Shown: piece after piece, positions 19,147-23,478 of the stretch
How the letters are laid out: every line of letters starts with the position of its first letter
Numbering within the stretch: the first letter of the stretch is position 1
Translations under genes and position numbers: made by a program
Assembly: GCF_001581005.1 (NCBI RefSeq)
Contig: NZ_LHZV01000061.1
Coordinates: 1 to 64,000 of the forward strand
Direction: 5' to 3'
DNA: 64,000 bases
From: Acetobacter orleanensis
GTDB lineage: Bacteria > Pseudomonadota > Alphaproteobacteria > Acetobacterales > Acetobacteraceae
Notes under the pieces: generated by a model
Told to the model about the DNA's origin: nothing
What the model saw: the letters and a program-made list of their open reading frames with translations, nothing else
Databases searched by the model: none

Positions 19147-20358
19147 TTAGCAATGGGCTTTCAGCACGCTAAATCCCTGCTCCAGATCACCAATTAGATC
19201 CTCAGTTGATTCCAGACCGATTTGCAGGCGCATGGATGGGCCTTCAGTGTCGTCTGCGGGGAAGTTGCGGATAATGCTCTTGCTTGTTGGCAGCACAAGG
19301 CTTTCGTACCCGCCCCATGAGGCTCCGATTCCAAAAAACCTGAACGAATCAACCATGGCTTCCATAGCGTTCTGGGTGAACGTGTTTCTCAGAACGAAGC
19401 CAAAAAGGCTTCCTGCCCCGGTAAAATCGCGTTTCCATATTTCGTGACCGGGACAGTCAGGCAGAGCAGGATGCAGGACCCGTGCGACTTCAGGTCTCGT
19501 CTTCAACCACTGAGCTACGCGCATGGCTGATTGTGCCTGATGAGACAGCCGGACACCCATGGTGTGCAGACCGCGCAGAGTGAGCCAACAATCGTCCGGC
19601 CCGGCGAGTTGGCCAAGCTGAATGGCGGTCTCTCGTAGCAGATGCCAGTCTTCCGTTTTTGCAACCGTCACCGCGCCGGCAATCACATCGGAATGGCCTG
19701 AAGGGTATTTGGTGAGTGCCTGAATGGAGACATCAACACCATGGGTGAACGGCGCAAAAATGCCAAAACCCCACGTGTTATCCATCATCAATCTGGCCCC
19801 ATGCGCGTGGGCGATGCGCGATAGCATGGGAATATCCTGCACTTCAAACGTATGGCTACCGGGACTTTCGGCAAACAGGACGCGCGTGTTCGGCTGGATC
19901 AGACCGGTGAGTTCCTCGGCGGAGGCACAGGGCGGATAATAAGTTGTTTCTACGCCAAAGCGTTTGAGCACCTTGTCTGCAAACCGCCGGGTGGGGCTAT
20001 AAACAGAATCGGGAATCAGGCAGTGCTCCCCGGCGTTTAGAAAGGCGAGCAGCGGCGTGGTGCAGGCAGCAAGGCCCGAGGAGACAACCTGACAGTCTGT
20101 GCCGCCTTCAATAACGGCAATCGCTTTTTCCAACTCGTGCTGCACGGGCGTGCCCATAGCGCCGTAAATATAGGCATGGTCAAAATGTTTCTGACCCTGC
20201 CTACGCATGTCGCTGAGCGATGGAAACAACACAGTTGAGCCGCGGGTCATGGGCATGTTCACGGGTGCGCCTTCCGGGGCGGCTTCCGGTCTGGCCAGAC
20301 GTGTCAGTGTCGAGGAGAGTTTATCCCAGCCTTGTGTCACAGTGATATCAGACGGCAT
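19147..20358 (-). CDS. metC: Cystathionine beta-lyase
   Basis: 403-residue PLP enzyme of the Cys/Met metabolism family. The Schiff-base Lys is K217 in ALTKYPSGHSD; D193 in MMDNTWGFG and the SSG loop (93-95) contact PLP, and Y119 is in the active site. Probably cleaves cystathionine to homocysteine, pyruvate and ammonia. Sequence alone does not exclude a related gamma-lyase or a cysteine desulfhydrase role. It starts three bases after sseA and is downstream of an XRE regulator, forming a likely sulfur amino-acid operon. Confidence 0.88.
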   Translation of the reverse strand: MPSDITVTQGWDKLSSTLTRLARPEAAPEGAPVNMPMTRGSTVLFPSLSDMRRQGQKHFDHAYIYGAMGTPVQHELEKAIAVIEGGTDCQVVSSGLAACTTPLLAFLNAGEHCLIPDSVYSPTRRFADKVLKRFGVETTYYPPCASAEELTGLIQPNTRVLFAESPGSHTFEVQDIPMLSRIAHAHGARLMMDNTWGFGIFAPFTHGVDVSIQALTKYPSGHSDVIAGAVTVAKTEDWHLLRETAIQLGQLAGPDDCWLTLRGLHTMGVRLSHQAQSAMRVAQWLKTRPEVARVLHPALPDCPGHEIWKRDFTGAGSLFGFVLRNTFTQNAMEAMVDSFRFFGIGASWGGYESLVLPTSKSIIRNFPADDTEGPSMRLQIGLESTEDLIGDLEQGFSVLKAHC

Positions 20359-20361
20359 ACG

Positions 20362-21204
20362 TCACACTCCTTTTGTCACCGGTGCATCTGGCGTTGCACC
20401 CCATTCCGCCCATGATCCGTCATACAATGCGCCTTCGTCAAAACCTGCCAGCGCGAGGCCAACGCTTAACACGGCCGCTGTCATGCCCGACCCGCACGTT
20501 GTAATGGCGGGTTTATCGGCTGGCAGGCCGGCTTCCAGAAACACGTTCCGAGCGCGGTCAGCAGGGAGAAATTCACCGTTTTCTGCAAGCAGATTTTTGT
20601 AGGGGAGATTGATAGCCCCCGGCATGTGTCCCGATGCCAGTCCCGGCCGTGGTTCAGGAACCTGCCCATAAAACCGTGCAGCCGAGCGTGCATCCAGAAT
20701 GGGGTTTAGTCCTTGCACAACAGTATCAAGCATATCGCCCAGCCCTTTCAGGCGGGAAAAATGAGTGTGGCAGGTATAGGGGCGTGAAGCGGGTTTCTCA
20801 GGGGTGCCTTGCTCGACGGGTTGATTATCACGCAACCATGCAGGAAGGCCGCCATCCAGCACAGAAACCTGTTCATGCCCAAACAGTCTGGCCAACCACC
20901 ACCCCCGGCAGGCGGAGGCGATATTGCCCTGATCATAAAAGATAACGTGCGTTGCGCGGGTAATACCAAGATCCCCAAAAAGTCGACCGAAGCGCGCGGC
21001 TGAGGGAGCCGTGTGAGGCTGCGTGCTTTCTGGGTCGGAAAAATAATCGATATTAAACCGAAGGCTGCCGGGGATATGGGCTTTCTGAAAAGCGTCGTCC
21101 GGGTTGCTGGTTTCTCCGGGTAAAAGTGCTGTTGCATCCAGAATGCGCAGCAGGGGGTTTTCCTGCAAGGAAGCAAGAGTTTTGACTGAAATCAGGGGAG
21201 ACAT
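20362..21204 (-). CDS. sseA: 3-mercaptopyruvate sulfurtransferase
   Basis: 280 residues in two rhodanese domains (about 5-130 and 155-280). The active-site Cys is C237 in the CGSGMTA loop; the CGSGxTA form marks mercaptopyruvate sulfurtransferases rather than thiosulfate sulfurtransferases. It transfers sulfur from 3-mercaptopyruvate to thiols or cyanide. It is paired with metC in one run, linking cysteine catabolism and methionine synthesis. A 92-base gap separates it from the XRE gene upstream. Confidence 0.92.
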   Translation of the reverse strand: MSPLISVKTLASLQENPLLRILDATALLPGETSNPDDAFQKAHIPGSLRFNIDYFSDPESTQPHTAPSAARFGRLFGDLGITRATHVIFYDQGNIASACRGWWLARLFGHEQVSVLDGGLPAWLRDNQPVEQGTPEKPASRPYTCHTHFSRLKGLGDMLDTVVQGLNPILDARSAARFYGQVPEPRPGLASGHMPGAINLPYKNLLAENGEFLPADRARNVFLEAGLPADKPAITTCGSGMTAAVLSVGLALAGFDEGALYDGSWAEWGATPDAPVTKGV

Positions 21205-21296: not shown

Positions 21297-22178
21297 TCAG
21301 GCCGCGCCATGACGTTCCACAAGCGTTTTAAGGCGCCCTATTGCATCAGCACCTTTAAGGGATGTTTGCCACAAGCGTTCAAGCATATGCTGGTGTGTTG
21401 TCACGGCTTCCAGTGAGGACGTAATAAGCGCCACGCCAGTCGTAGTGTTGGGAGAACAGTCACACCGGAACGGATTGATAGCGACAGCCATCTGCTCACT
21501 GTGGCGCATGAAAATGCACGACGTCACGGTTATAGTGTCTGGAATAACGCTAAATTGAAGCCCCATGGGGGCAGCATCAATCAAGGTGATGATATTGCGG
21601 ATTTCCTGCACCGCAACCTGCCGGGCCTTATGCCGCAAAGGTTGCGACATTGGGACGCCTGCCCCGACACCATGCGTCAGGAAATCAATAACCCGGCTTT
21701 CATGAAGCATGGAAATAATAGACGGATTTCTCTGACTATAGAGTGCGCGCCGCTTGGACTGTGCCAGAACAACAGGCGTTGTCGTGATGTCTTGCCCATT
21801 TTTTTGGAGTTGGTCGGTTTGGGCTTCAAGCAGAATGGCATCATAAGCCGGTGATGTTACTTGGTAGCAGACCGGGTCTGAGACTTGAAGAATCTGTTCT
21901 ATATCGCTTTCAATCGCGGCCATTTTCTGAAAAAATTTGTTAGGGCAATTATAATATTCAATCCCAATCCCTAGAAGCGTCAGGGGTGAGATATTCAGGA
22001 GTTCGGCAAGTTTCTGGACAGTATCCAGCTTGATGACTTCCCCTTTTTCATAACGGTATAACGCCGCGCGGGAGACGCCGAGCCGCAATGCAATCTCGTC
22101 CGCCCGCATTCCGGATTCAAGGCGGAAAGCTCTTAACTGCTGACCAATTTCACCAAGATGCATTGTGACGGCAGCCAT
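21297..22178 (-). CDS. XRE-family transcriptional regulator
   Basis: 293 residues. The N-terminal helix-turn-helix (about 8-65) reads IGQQLRAFRLESGMRADEIALRLGVSRAALYRYEKGEVIKLDT in register with XRE regulators. The remaining 220 residues form an unrecognised domain, perhaps sensing a ligand; HESRVIDFLTHGVGAGVPMS and a Cys-containing FRCDCSPNTTTG stretch are noted. A perfect 20-bp palindrome at 22241-22260 overlaps its predicted promoter, so it is probably autoregulated. Its position upstream of sseA-metC suggests control of these genes. Confidence 0.85.
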   Translation of the reverse strand: MAAVTMHLGEIGQQLRAFRLESGMRADEIALRLGVSRAALYRYEKGEVIKLDTVQKLAELLNISPLTLLGIGIEYYNCPNKFFQKMAAIESDIEQILQVSDPVCYQVTSPAYDAILLEAQTDQLQKNGQDITTTPVVLAQSKRRALYSQRNPSIISMLHESRVIDFLTHGVGAGVPMSQPLRHKARQVAVQEIRNIITLIDAAPMGLQFSVIPDTITVTSCIFMRHSEQMAVAINPFRCDCSPNTTTGVALITSSLEAVTTHQHMLERLWQTSLKGADAIGRLKTLVERHGAA

Positions 22179-22231
22179 TTATCTCACCTTATGAATCAAC
22201 ATGTTATGGATAAAAATCTTTATCTAATAGC

Positions 22232-22260
22232 TACGTTAATAATACGTTAATTAACGTATT
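22232..22260. promoter_or_regulatory. Palindromic operator upstream of the XRE gene
   Basis: A perfect 20-bp palindrome with half-site AATACGTTAA fills 22241-22260. The 9-mer TACGTTAAT occurs at 22232-22240 and again at 22243-22251, an 11-base (one helical turn) step, so three half-sites are present. This is a strong candidate binding site for the XRE regulator at 21297-22178. It could also influence the divergent AI-2E gene. Confidence 0.75.
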
Positions 22261-22275
22261 GTAAAGTCTCGTCAA
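22247..22275 (-). promoter_or_regulatory. Candidate sigma-70 promoter for the XRE gene
   Basis: On the minus strand TTGACG (22270-22275) is followed after 17 bases by AATTAA (22247-22252), which lies at the centre of the palindrome. A repressor bound there would block the promoter. The -10 element is only a partial match. Confidence 0.4.
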
Positions 22276-22380: not shown

Positions 22381-23478
22381 GTGCTTATGATGGATGGGCT
22401 GACTTTGACAACGGAACGAATCATGCTGGCTCTGCTACTTGGTGGCATTGCTTATGGGTGTGTTATCGTTCTCGCCCCGTTTTCTTCAGCTATTTTGTGG
22501 GCTGGTGTACTGACATACGCGACATGGCCCGTTTTCCAGTATTTCCGTCGCCGGATGAGTGCTCTCGCCGCCAGTCTGATCATGACGTTCCTGTGTGCTG
22601 TTGGATTCGTCATTCCTCTCGCTTTTCTGGCCTCCACGACCATCGCAGCCAGCCCGCGCTGGGCTTCCCGGCTGAATGAATTTTTTAGTTTTTCCCATCA
22701 GATCCCACCACCACCGGGCTGGCTGATCACGCTCCCCATGGTCGGGCAGGACCTTGTCAACCAGTGGCAACATTGGAGCCATGATTTTGACCATTTAGGA
22801 GCCAGCCTGAGGCCATATGCGGGGGATATTATTCAGTCTCTGCTGGTGCTCCTTATACAGGTTGCCAACGGGGCGCTTCATCTGGTGATGGCGCTGTTTA
22901 TAGCCTTTTTTTTCTGGCTCAGCGGCTCCTCTCTGGGGGATACGCTTAAAGCTGTCATGACGCGTATTGCCGGGCCGCATGCTAGCAGACATCTGCACAT
23001 TATTGGCGGGACCGTGCGCGGCACTGTTTACGGTATTCTGGGCACTGCGATTATTCAGGGCATTCTGACAGGCGTTGGCTTCTGGCTGACAGGACTCTCA
23101 GAACCCGTCATGTTTGGTGTGCTGGCGGCTTTTCTCGCTGTTTTGCCCATAGGTGCGCCGTTGGTCTGGGTTCCAGCTTCACTCTGGCTGCTGGTTGACC
23201 ATCATGTTGTCAGAGGCGTTTTGCTGGCTCTTTATGGTATCGTGCTAATCTCTGGCGCTGACCATATTATCCGACCGCTGTTTATTGCCCGAGGAAGCAA
23301 GCTGCCTTATCTTTTAACAGTGTTGGGTGTCATTGGTGGCGTTATGGCATTTGGTGGTTTGGGGATTTTTCTCGGACCAATTCTGCTGGCGGTCGGTTTT
23401 ACATTGACTGTTGAGTTTGCCGATCAGGAAGTATCTTCTCATTCTTCGTCTGATGATCAAAGGAGACTGCCTTCATGA
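22381..23478 (+). CDS. AI-2E family (PerM-like) membrane protein
   Basis: About 365 residues with roughly eight hydrophobic helices. Two paired helices are at the N-terminus, a long amphipathic soluble region (about 90-150) follows, and conserved glycine-rich helices come next (GTVRGTVYGILGTAIIQGILTGVGFWLTG, then FLAVLPIGAPLVWVPAS). This is the AI-2E/PerM layout; members export autoinducer 2 in E. coli (TqsA) or move ions or unknown solutes. The frame opens at GTG 22381 with ATGs at 22387 and 22390 and no clear ribosome site. The stop overlaps the next gene's start. Confidence 0.85.
   Translation: MLMMDGLTLTTERIMLALLLGGIAYGCVIVLAPFSSAILWAGVLTYATWPVFQYFRRRMSALAASLIMTFLCAVGFVIPLAFLASTTIAASPRWASRLNEFFSFSHQIPPPPGWLITLPMVGQDLVNQWQHWSHDFDHLGASLRPYAGDIIQSLLVLLIQVANGALHLVMALFIAFFFWLSGSSLGDTLKAVMTRIAGPHASRHLHIIGGTVRGTVYGILGTAIIQGILTGVGFWLTGLSEPVMFGVLAAFLAVLPIGAPLVWVPASLWLLVDHHVVRGVLLALYGIVLISGADHIIRPLFIARGSKLPYLLTVLGVIGGVMAFGGLGIFLGPILLAVGFTLTVEFADQEVSSHSSSDDQRRLPS

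Follow-up and report, generated by a model that had tools for sequence, protein, structure and literature searches.

A conserved head-to-tail repeat as candidate operator of an XRE-family regulator with a predicted phospholipase-D-like domain in Acetobacter

The 64,000-nucleotide stretch of Acetobacter orleanensis DNA analyzed here (the window, part of contig C56 in a 3.0 Mb genome of 67 contigs) encodes an XRE-family regulator upstream of sseA and metC. The promoter of the regulator gene carries two TTAACG half-sites, which are arranged head-to-tail at a distance of 11 bp and enclose the putative -10 element. We consider it probable that the protein is an autorepressor, which acts on this repeat and is equipped with a sensor domain of a phospholipase-D (PLD)-like fold. 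In such a mechanism, two N-terminal helix-turn-helix (HTH) domains would bind TTAACG and TTRACG on the same face of the DNA, as 11 bp correspond to one helical turn. The half-sites enclose the -10 of a TTTACA-N15/16-TATTAT promoter, and the bound regulator would shut out RNA polymerase. The regulator would thus repress itself and also, through read-through, sseA and metC. The PLD-like domain, devoid of the catalytic motif, would probably bind a small molecule, upon which the regulator would be released or adopt another pose, similar to the PLD-like sugar domain of archaeal TrmB. Beyond its own promoter, the regulator would have a small and shifting set of targets in Acetobacter, including the promoter of a WbsX-type glycosyltransferase gene and a gene for an HTH protein of about 100 amino acids.

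The repeat was identified by comparison of orthologues. When 49 Acetobacter genomes were searched with the regulator, 29 had a match at E ≤ 0.001. Twenty-two of these are orthologues, namely 21 near full-length proteins including that of the window (52-100% identity; L009-L029) and one fragment (L030), whereas the matches in the remaining 7 are weak and of HTH size only. The nearest named orthologues, with 74-81% protein identity, belong to Acetobacter cerevisiae, A. malorum, A. persici and A. farinalis. On the sense strand, the pattern TTAACG-N5-TTRACG is found exactly in 17 of the 21 near full-length genus orthologues. The half-sites are separated by TATTAT or a variant of it, and TTTACA is located 15-16 bp upstream. 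These promoter elements were located with a script that took the best-scoring place within 200 bp; in L010 and L011 it chose another place, and these two regions were hence read by eye. Of the 16 upstream regions compared, which are those of 15 named Acetobacter and of the window, 14 have the 11-bp spacing, whereas any other spacing between 6 and 23 bp occurs in at most one. A repeat with the same 11-bp period, but in the opposite orientation (CGTTA/TGTTA), is present in near genera in four out of five loci with a compact gene order (L117, L127, L129 and L135), for each of which 0-2 of 300 shuffled sequences were as good.

The genomes of the genus that have no regulator provide a second line of evidence. 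We used 22 of the 27 genomes without an orthologue and excluded the other five (G027, G035, G038, G039 and G043), which are incomplete, small or fragmented. The 22 regulator-bearing genomes contain 43 TTAACG-N5-TTRACG sites compared to 9 sites for a reversed-pattern control, whereas the 22 regulator-less genomes contain 4 sites compared to 15 for the control. Hence, the regulator and the sites go together. They are lost together, and the direction of this trend is plain despite the kinship of the genomes. In the excluded set, a slightly longer pattern found the WbsX site described below in G035 (68% complete) and one site in G038.

Besides 17 regulator promoters, 26 sites remain in the regulator-bearing genomes. 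Nine of them precede a gene for an HTH protein of about 100 amino acids by 74-77 bp, measured from its aligned start; this gene has a UbiA-family gene on one side and a DEAD-box helicase gene on the other (L223-L229, L234 and L235), and two of these small proteins were scanned and neither gave a Pfam match above the cut-off. Another six sites lie in the intergenic region that metX shares with a divergently oriented gene for a WbsX-type glycosyltransferase, and a seventh such site is present in G035, where the regulator was not seen. We examined 30 sseA loci and 30 of the 49 metX loci. The site is present at 7 of the 7 metX loci that have a neighboring WbsX gene (e.g. L203:2852-3958) and at none of the 23 that do not. 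In all seven cases, a -35 element matching at 5 of 6 positions is found at a distance of 15-17 bp and reads towards WbsX. As the site tracks the divergent WbsX gene and reads towards it, metX itself (homoserine O-acetyltransferase) was dropped as a target. Riboswitch control was also considered, and a scan of the window and of 20 of the 30 metX loci gave no Rfam match at the gathering threshold.

Four further sites (G001, G034, G036 and G040) are located near a small XRE gene, itself adjacent to a gene for a protein resembling tyrosyl-tRNA synthetase (TyrRS), and their surroundings are nearly identical. The remaining 7 of the 26 sites are single. Three are near genes for large Hint_2-domain proteins (G000, G042 and G011), and in G011 a resolvase-like gene is nearer than the Hint_2 gene on the strand of the site. 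G000 is the window's own genome; apart from the regulator promoter, its sole exact match is this site, which lies on contig C5, 49 bp upstream of the gene for a 670-residue Hint_2 protein (L242:702-2711). One single site in G032 has polysaccharide-export genes as neighbors (BBP2_2, Poly_export and, below the threshold, Wzz), and the others (G017, contig C37 of G032, and G001) share no common theme. The number of sites expected by chance in 22 genomes is about 4 judging by the regulator-less set and 9 judging by the reversed control, and the single sites are therefore weak evidence. A cell-surface theme among the targets is a lead, not a result.

Several observations weigh against the proposed model. 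The Fisher p-value for the association between the regulator and the sites is 2.8e-6, or 4.0e-4 after removal of the 17 regulator promoters, but both values overstate the association as the genomes are related and the counts are not independent. Furthermore, the regulator-bearing genomes are somewhat larger than the regulator-less ones. The genome of the window alone displays no regulon: it has two sites of the exact pattern and two of the reversed control. Four of the 21 orthologues deviate from the pattern, with one mismatch in L012, two in L010 and three in L011 (both at the aligned place) and a different arrangement in L029. The promoter geometry is not universal either, as the -35 is poor at the nine small-HTH sites, with 2-3 of 6 positions matched on the TTAACG strand. 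The fifth near-genus locus, L119, is no better than its shuffles (28 of 300 were as good). Finally, the repeat is found in just 5 of 65 named loci outside Acetobacter (shuffle mean 0.05, maximum 1), and one of the five, L137, is probably a chance occurrence. As the repeat is scarce outside Acetobacter, the other lineages would have a different or decayed operator.

The same protein could act at the same site as an activator or have a dual role, for instance through a contact with RNA polymerase that forms once the PLD-like domain has taken up its ligand. Short -35 spacers occur in some activator-dependent promoters, and the spacer here is 15-16 bp. The position of the small-HTH sites relative to the start and the poor -35 match there are also consistent with activation, and the TrmB family includes activators (PMC4158304). 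At both the regulator and the WbsX promoters, however, the site encloses the -10. This is the usual position for a repressor, and we regard activation as unlikely.

Alternatively, the repeat could serve as nothing but a core promoter, or another regulator could use it as its operator, in which case the neighboring XRE protein would not be its binder. A repeat that contains the -10 would be conserved in any case, and its binding by the XRE protein is what we infer from the comparison. However, the pattern exceeds its control in the regulator-bearing genomes and falls short of it in the regulator-less ones, and at the WbsX and small-HTH sites the half-sites are retained despite variation of the spacer bases. 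Such an explanation is, in our judgment, quite unlikely.

A sequence-only reading of the window had placed the operator elsewhere. It proposed an autorepressor on a perfect 20-bp palindrome that covers a TTGACG/N17/AATTAA promoter, with a third half-site one helical turn away, and assigned to it the control of cysteine and mercaptopyruvate sulfur flow through sseA and metC in response to a sulfur metabolite. The palindrome and the third half-site are both present as described, and the 9-mer TACGTTAAT occurs at 22232-22240 (+), 22243-22251 (+) and 22250-22258 (-). In the entire genome this 9-mer has nine copies, three of which are those at the regulator promoter. A search for the half-site elsewhere, which the same reading had suggested, thus does find copies, but there is no excess of paired sites in this genome: a relaxed pattern with up to 3 mismatches gave 8 matches compared to 9 for the reversed control, with no signal beyond the regulator's own promoter. 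The palindrome is rare in statistical terms, as the window has one perfect 20-bp palindrome compared to a chance mean of 0.15 and a maximum of 2 in 40 first-order Markov resamples. Its left arm, YGTTAA, is kept in the seven closest genomes (L009-L015), but is not found at that position in the other 14. Consequently, the palindrome is perfect in only one of the 21 Acetobacter orthologues and does not survive a comparison that its proponent had itself named as decisive, conservation in related genomes. The promoter hexamers do exist on the minus strand (22275-22247), with AATTAA at the palindrome center, but the -35 TTGACG is missing at its position in L015 and 14 more distant orthologues. What is conserved is the combination of the former third half-site with the right half of the palindrome, and the perfect palindrome, as judged from these alignments, is a local accident. 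A striking palindrome can mislead, as the conserved element here is the repeat beside it.

The sulfur function assigned to the locus is probably too narrow as well. The gene sseA directly follows the regulator gene at its 3' side in 22 of the 22 Acetobacter loci that have the regulator. However, in the regulator-less genomes (L249-L269 and L271) the transporter, sseA and metC are adjacent in 22 of 22 sseA loci, and just the regulator is missing between the transporter and sseA. A match to sseA is present in 46 of the 49 genus genomes, i.e. in 22 of 22 with the regulator and in 24 of 27 without it (the misses are G035, G038 and G039), and a sulfur regulon defined by co-occurrence was dropped on this ground. 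As sseA and metC are kept without the regulator and the other recurring sites are found at glycan and small-HTH genes, not at sulfur genes, the sulfur-flow purpose is weakened. The part of the earlier proposal that we retain is that of a putative autoregulator upstream of sseA and metC in a single string of genes. As a whole, a dimer on the palindrome that regulates the flow of sulfur is very unlikely.

A wider survey shows how far the repressor we propose is tied to these genes. Among the Acetobacteraceae sampled, 252 of 347 genomes and 80 of 102 genera have a member of the regulator family, mostly as a single copy. Among sampled genomes of the class, 8 of 289 have one at E ≤ 1e-15, the window's own genome included. 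In a phylum-wide search, a match was obtained in 2 of 398 genomes, both Acetobacteraceae; as every genome listed was an alphaproteobacterium of very high completeness, this figure was not used to gauge the spread. Among 80 named Acetobacteraceae loci, sseA is found in 44, metC in 42 and the transporter in 54, and sseA is immediately next to the regulator gene in 22; in some loci an AlaX-type gene separates the two. Seventy-two of these loci extend at least 3.5 kb downstream, and 42 of the 72 have both sseA and metC within 3.5 kb or slightly beyond. The link between the regulator and sseA-metC is therefore common in Acetobacteraceae, but not general.

In basal Acetobacteraceae (L137:3176-4855, L144, L158 and L174), the regulator gene follows a gene resembling 2-oxo-tetronate or hydroxypyruvate isomerase. 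The L137 isomerase scores best as 2-oxo-tetronate isomerase (378 bits, cut-off 325), compared to 347 bits for hydroxypyruvate isomerase (cut-off 353). A gene resembling tartronate semialdehyde reductase is also present upstream on the same strand in L137 (400 bits, cut-off 341), L158 and L174, but not in L144, and a family search found a thiamine pyrophosphate (TPP)-enzyme gene nearby in L158. Apart from the L137 genes and this TPP enzyme, the genes of the basal loci were identified by eye. Distant homologues outside Acetobacteraceae (L184, L187, L190 and L191) lie beside genes resembling those of sulfopyruvate decarboxylase, TauD and molybdenum hydroxylase, and beside other genes. Of the neighbors scored, all except a TRAP binding protein fall below the curated cut-offs; those of L187 were identified by eye only. 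These neighborhoods suggest that the ligands may be among the small 2-oxo acids.

Turning to the protein, its N-terminal part is a clear Cro/C1-type (XRE) HTH, which scores 47.7 bits with HTH_3 (cut-off 23) and 41.8 bits with HTH_31 (cut-off 27). Both families match all 67 members of the regulator family at E ≤ 1. The remainder is variable, as the mean pairwise identity among the 67 sequences is 0.539 in residues 77-293 compared to 0.934 in residues 10-76. At E ≤ 1, the Pfam matches of the window protein are confined to the HTH, and a sequence profile of its C-terminal part found no match in the PDB up to E 5. A resemblance of this part to DUF5753 was considered and rejected, as the Pfam search with the window protein did not yield that family.

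The C-terminal domain of about 220 residues, which the sequence-only reading had been unable to recognize and for which it had recommended structure prediction, became interpretable by that approach. AlphaFold2 gave a pLDDT of 85.4 and a pTM of 0.73 for the full-length regulator, and 88.3 and 0.85 for residues 68-293 alone. In comparisons of the latter model with the PDB, the best matches by both Foldseek and VIA-align were PLD-type chains and TrmB/TrmBL2. The best Foldseek match was TrmBL2 at E 2.5e-5, with modest TM-scores of 0.45/0.40, and VIA-align superimposed the model on vaccinia F13 with a Z-score of 12.2 and 3.7 Å over 162 residues. The active-site motif of the PLD superfamily is HxK(x)4D (HKD), and it is found in none of the 67 members. 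A PLD-like fold without the catalytic motif is thus predicted with good confidence, and the domain is plausibly a sensor.

The features of the locus are collected in Table 1. The gene order of the sequence-only reading, with the regulator, sseA and metC on one strand, was confirmed by family matches. A divergent transporter gene lies beside the regulator gene in 21 of the 22 genus loci, and the single exception begins at a contig end. A consensus scan for promoters and terminators between 19000 and 22700 turned out to be uninformative on read-through into sseA, as it found 3 and 4 sites, respectively, compared to 3.1 and 4.2 expected.

Table 1. Coordinates of the regulator locus in the window and the basis of each assignment.
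Feature	Position	Strand	Basis
Conserved candidate operator, head-to-tail half-sites TTAACG + TTAACG, 11 bp apart	22234..22250	-	Sequence conservation
-10 TATTAT (putative role), between the half-sites	22239..22244	-	14/21 by script, L010 and L011 by eye
-35 TTTACA, 15 bp from the -10	22260..22265	-	18/21 by script, L010 and L011 by eye; spacer 15-16 bp
Perfect 20-bp palindrome AATACGTTAATTAACGTATT, window only	22241..22260	.	Direct sequence reading; 10/10 pairs in 1/21 orthologues
Reversed half-site CGTTAA completing the palindrome	22251..22256	-	YGTTAA only in the 7 closest genomes, window included
XRE-family regulator, 293 amino acids	21297..22178	-	HTH_3 E 1.6e-12, HTH_31 E 1.3e-10
DNA-binding domain, residues 10-76	21951..22151	-	Mean pairwise identity 0.934, 67 sequences
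C-terminal domain, residues 68-293, predicted PLD-like fold without HKD	21300..21977	-	AlphaFold2 model and fold matches
sseA, 3-mercaptopyruvate sulfurtransferase-like, two rhodanese stretches	20362..21204	-	NCBIfam PRK11493 241 bits, slightly below the cut-off of 250
metC, cystathionine beta-lyase	19147..20358	-	TIGR01324 446.8 bits, cut-off 365.9
AI-2E-family transporter gene, divergent; true start possibly a few codons downstream	22381..23478	+	PF01594 E 4.5e-38

In the full-text literature, which largely comprised journals open without subscription, we recognized no work on this regulator, nor any on an XRE protein that carries a PLD-like domain. The closest studied locus is msrR-3mst-mfs of Corynebacterium glutamicum (PMC7532634). 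There, MsrR is reported to be an XRE autorepressor of 240 residues with one oxidation-sensing cysteine, which is cotranscribed with 3-mercaptopyruvate sulfurtransferase (3-MST) and divergent from an efflux transporter. The plan of the two loci is the same, as here too the regulator is followed by a 3-MST gene (sseA) and flanked by a divergent transporter. They differ in the third gene, which is described as encoding a putative protein in the MsrR operon, whereas metC follows sseA here. A thiol switch, in which oxidation of a cysteine would release the DNA and induce 3-MST, is suggested by this shared plan but is extremely unlikely in our case because the family has no invariant cysteine: the best column (position 104) has one in 50 of the 67 members and lacks it in L016-L028 of Acetobacter, and no column within residues 1-77, the DNA-binding half, has a cysteine in at least 10 of the 67.

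By sequence and fold, the N-terminal HTH resembles that of the Cro/C1 (XRE) repressors SinR, C.AhdI and DdrO. Repressors of this type have short or unrelated C-termini and typically palindromic operators, unlike the head-to-tail pair conserved here. The C-terminal model (residues 68-293) is in turn similar to the PLD nucleases Nuc (1byr; Z 10.2, 3.6 Å over 147 residues) and NucT (6ehi_D; Z 11.7, 3.1 Å over 144) and to SauUSI of the PLD superfamily (7clg_B; Z 11.5, 3.2 Å over 160), but, unlike in the nucleases, the catalytic HKD motif is missing from all members of the regulator family.

The effector domain of TrmB is PLD-like, in agreement with the fold match found here. Of the TrmB-family structures considered (PDB 2f5t, 3qph, 5bpi and 5box), the predicted domain resembles TrmB (2f5t_X; Z 9.6, 3.4 Å over 128 residues) and TrmBL2 (5box_A; Z 10.7, 4.4 Å over 139). 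The archaeal TrmB, TrmBL1 and TrmBL2 likewise combine a DNA-binding N-terminus with an effector domain (PMC4158304). However, TrmB binds DNA with a winged helix (PF01978), whereas the regulator has a Cro/C1-type HTH. At E ≤ 1 the window protein matches 18 listed Pfam families, which include neither PF01978 nor PF11495, yet the predicted C-terminal fold resembles the PF11495 effector-binding domain despite the lack of a sequence match, with 5-10% identity in the aligned TrmB parts.

Most likely, the regulator is a known kind of autorepressor with an unusual sensor. A far bolder possibility, to which we assign little likelihood, is that it is a bacterial counterpart of TrmB of independent origin, composed of an XRE HTH and an emptied PLD fold, which would sense a small 2-oxo acid and link it to cell-surface genes. 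The ligand would then be 3-mercaptopyruvate here and perhaps hydroxypyruvate or sulfopyruvate in relatives that lie beside the matching genes, and the cell-surface genes may be those of the glycosyltransferase, polysaccharide export and the surface-like Hint-domain proteins. In summary, a widespread regulator of Acetobacteraceae gains a specific candidate operator, a predicted sensor fold and the first candidate targets beyond its operon. If its PLD-like domain does bind a metabolite, it would represent a second route from the phospholipase-D fold to a transcriptional sensor, beside that taken by archaeal TrmB.
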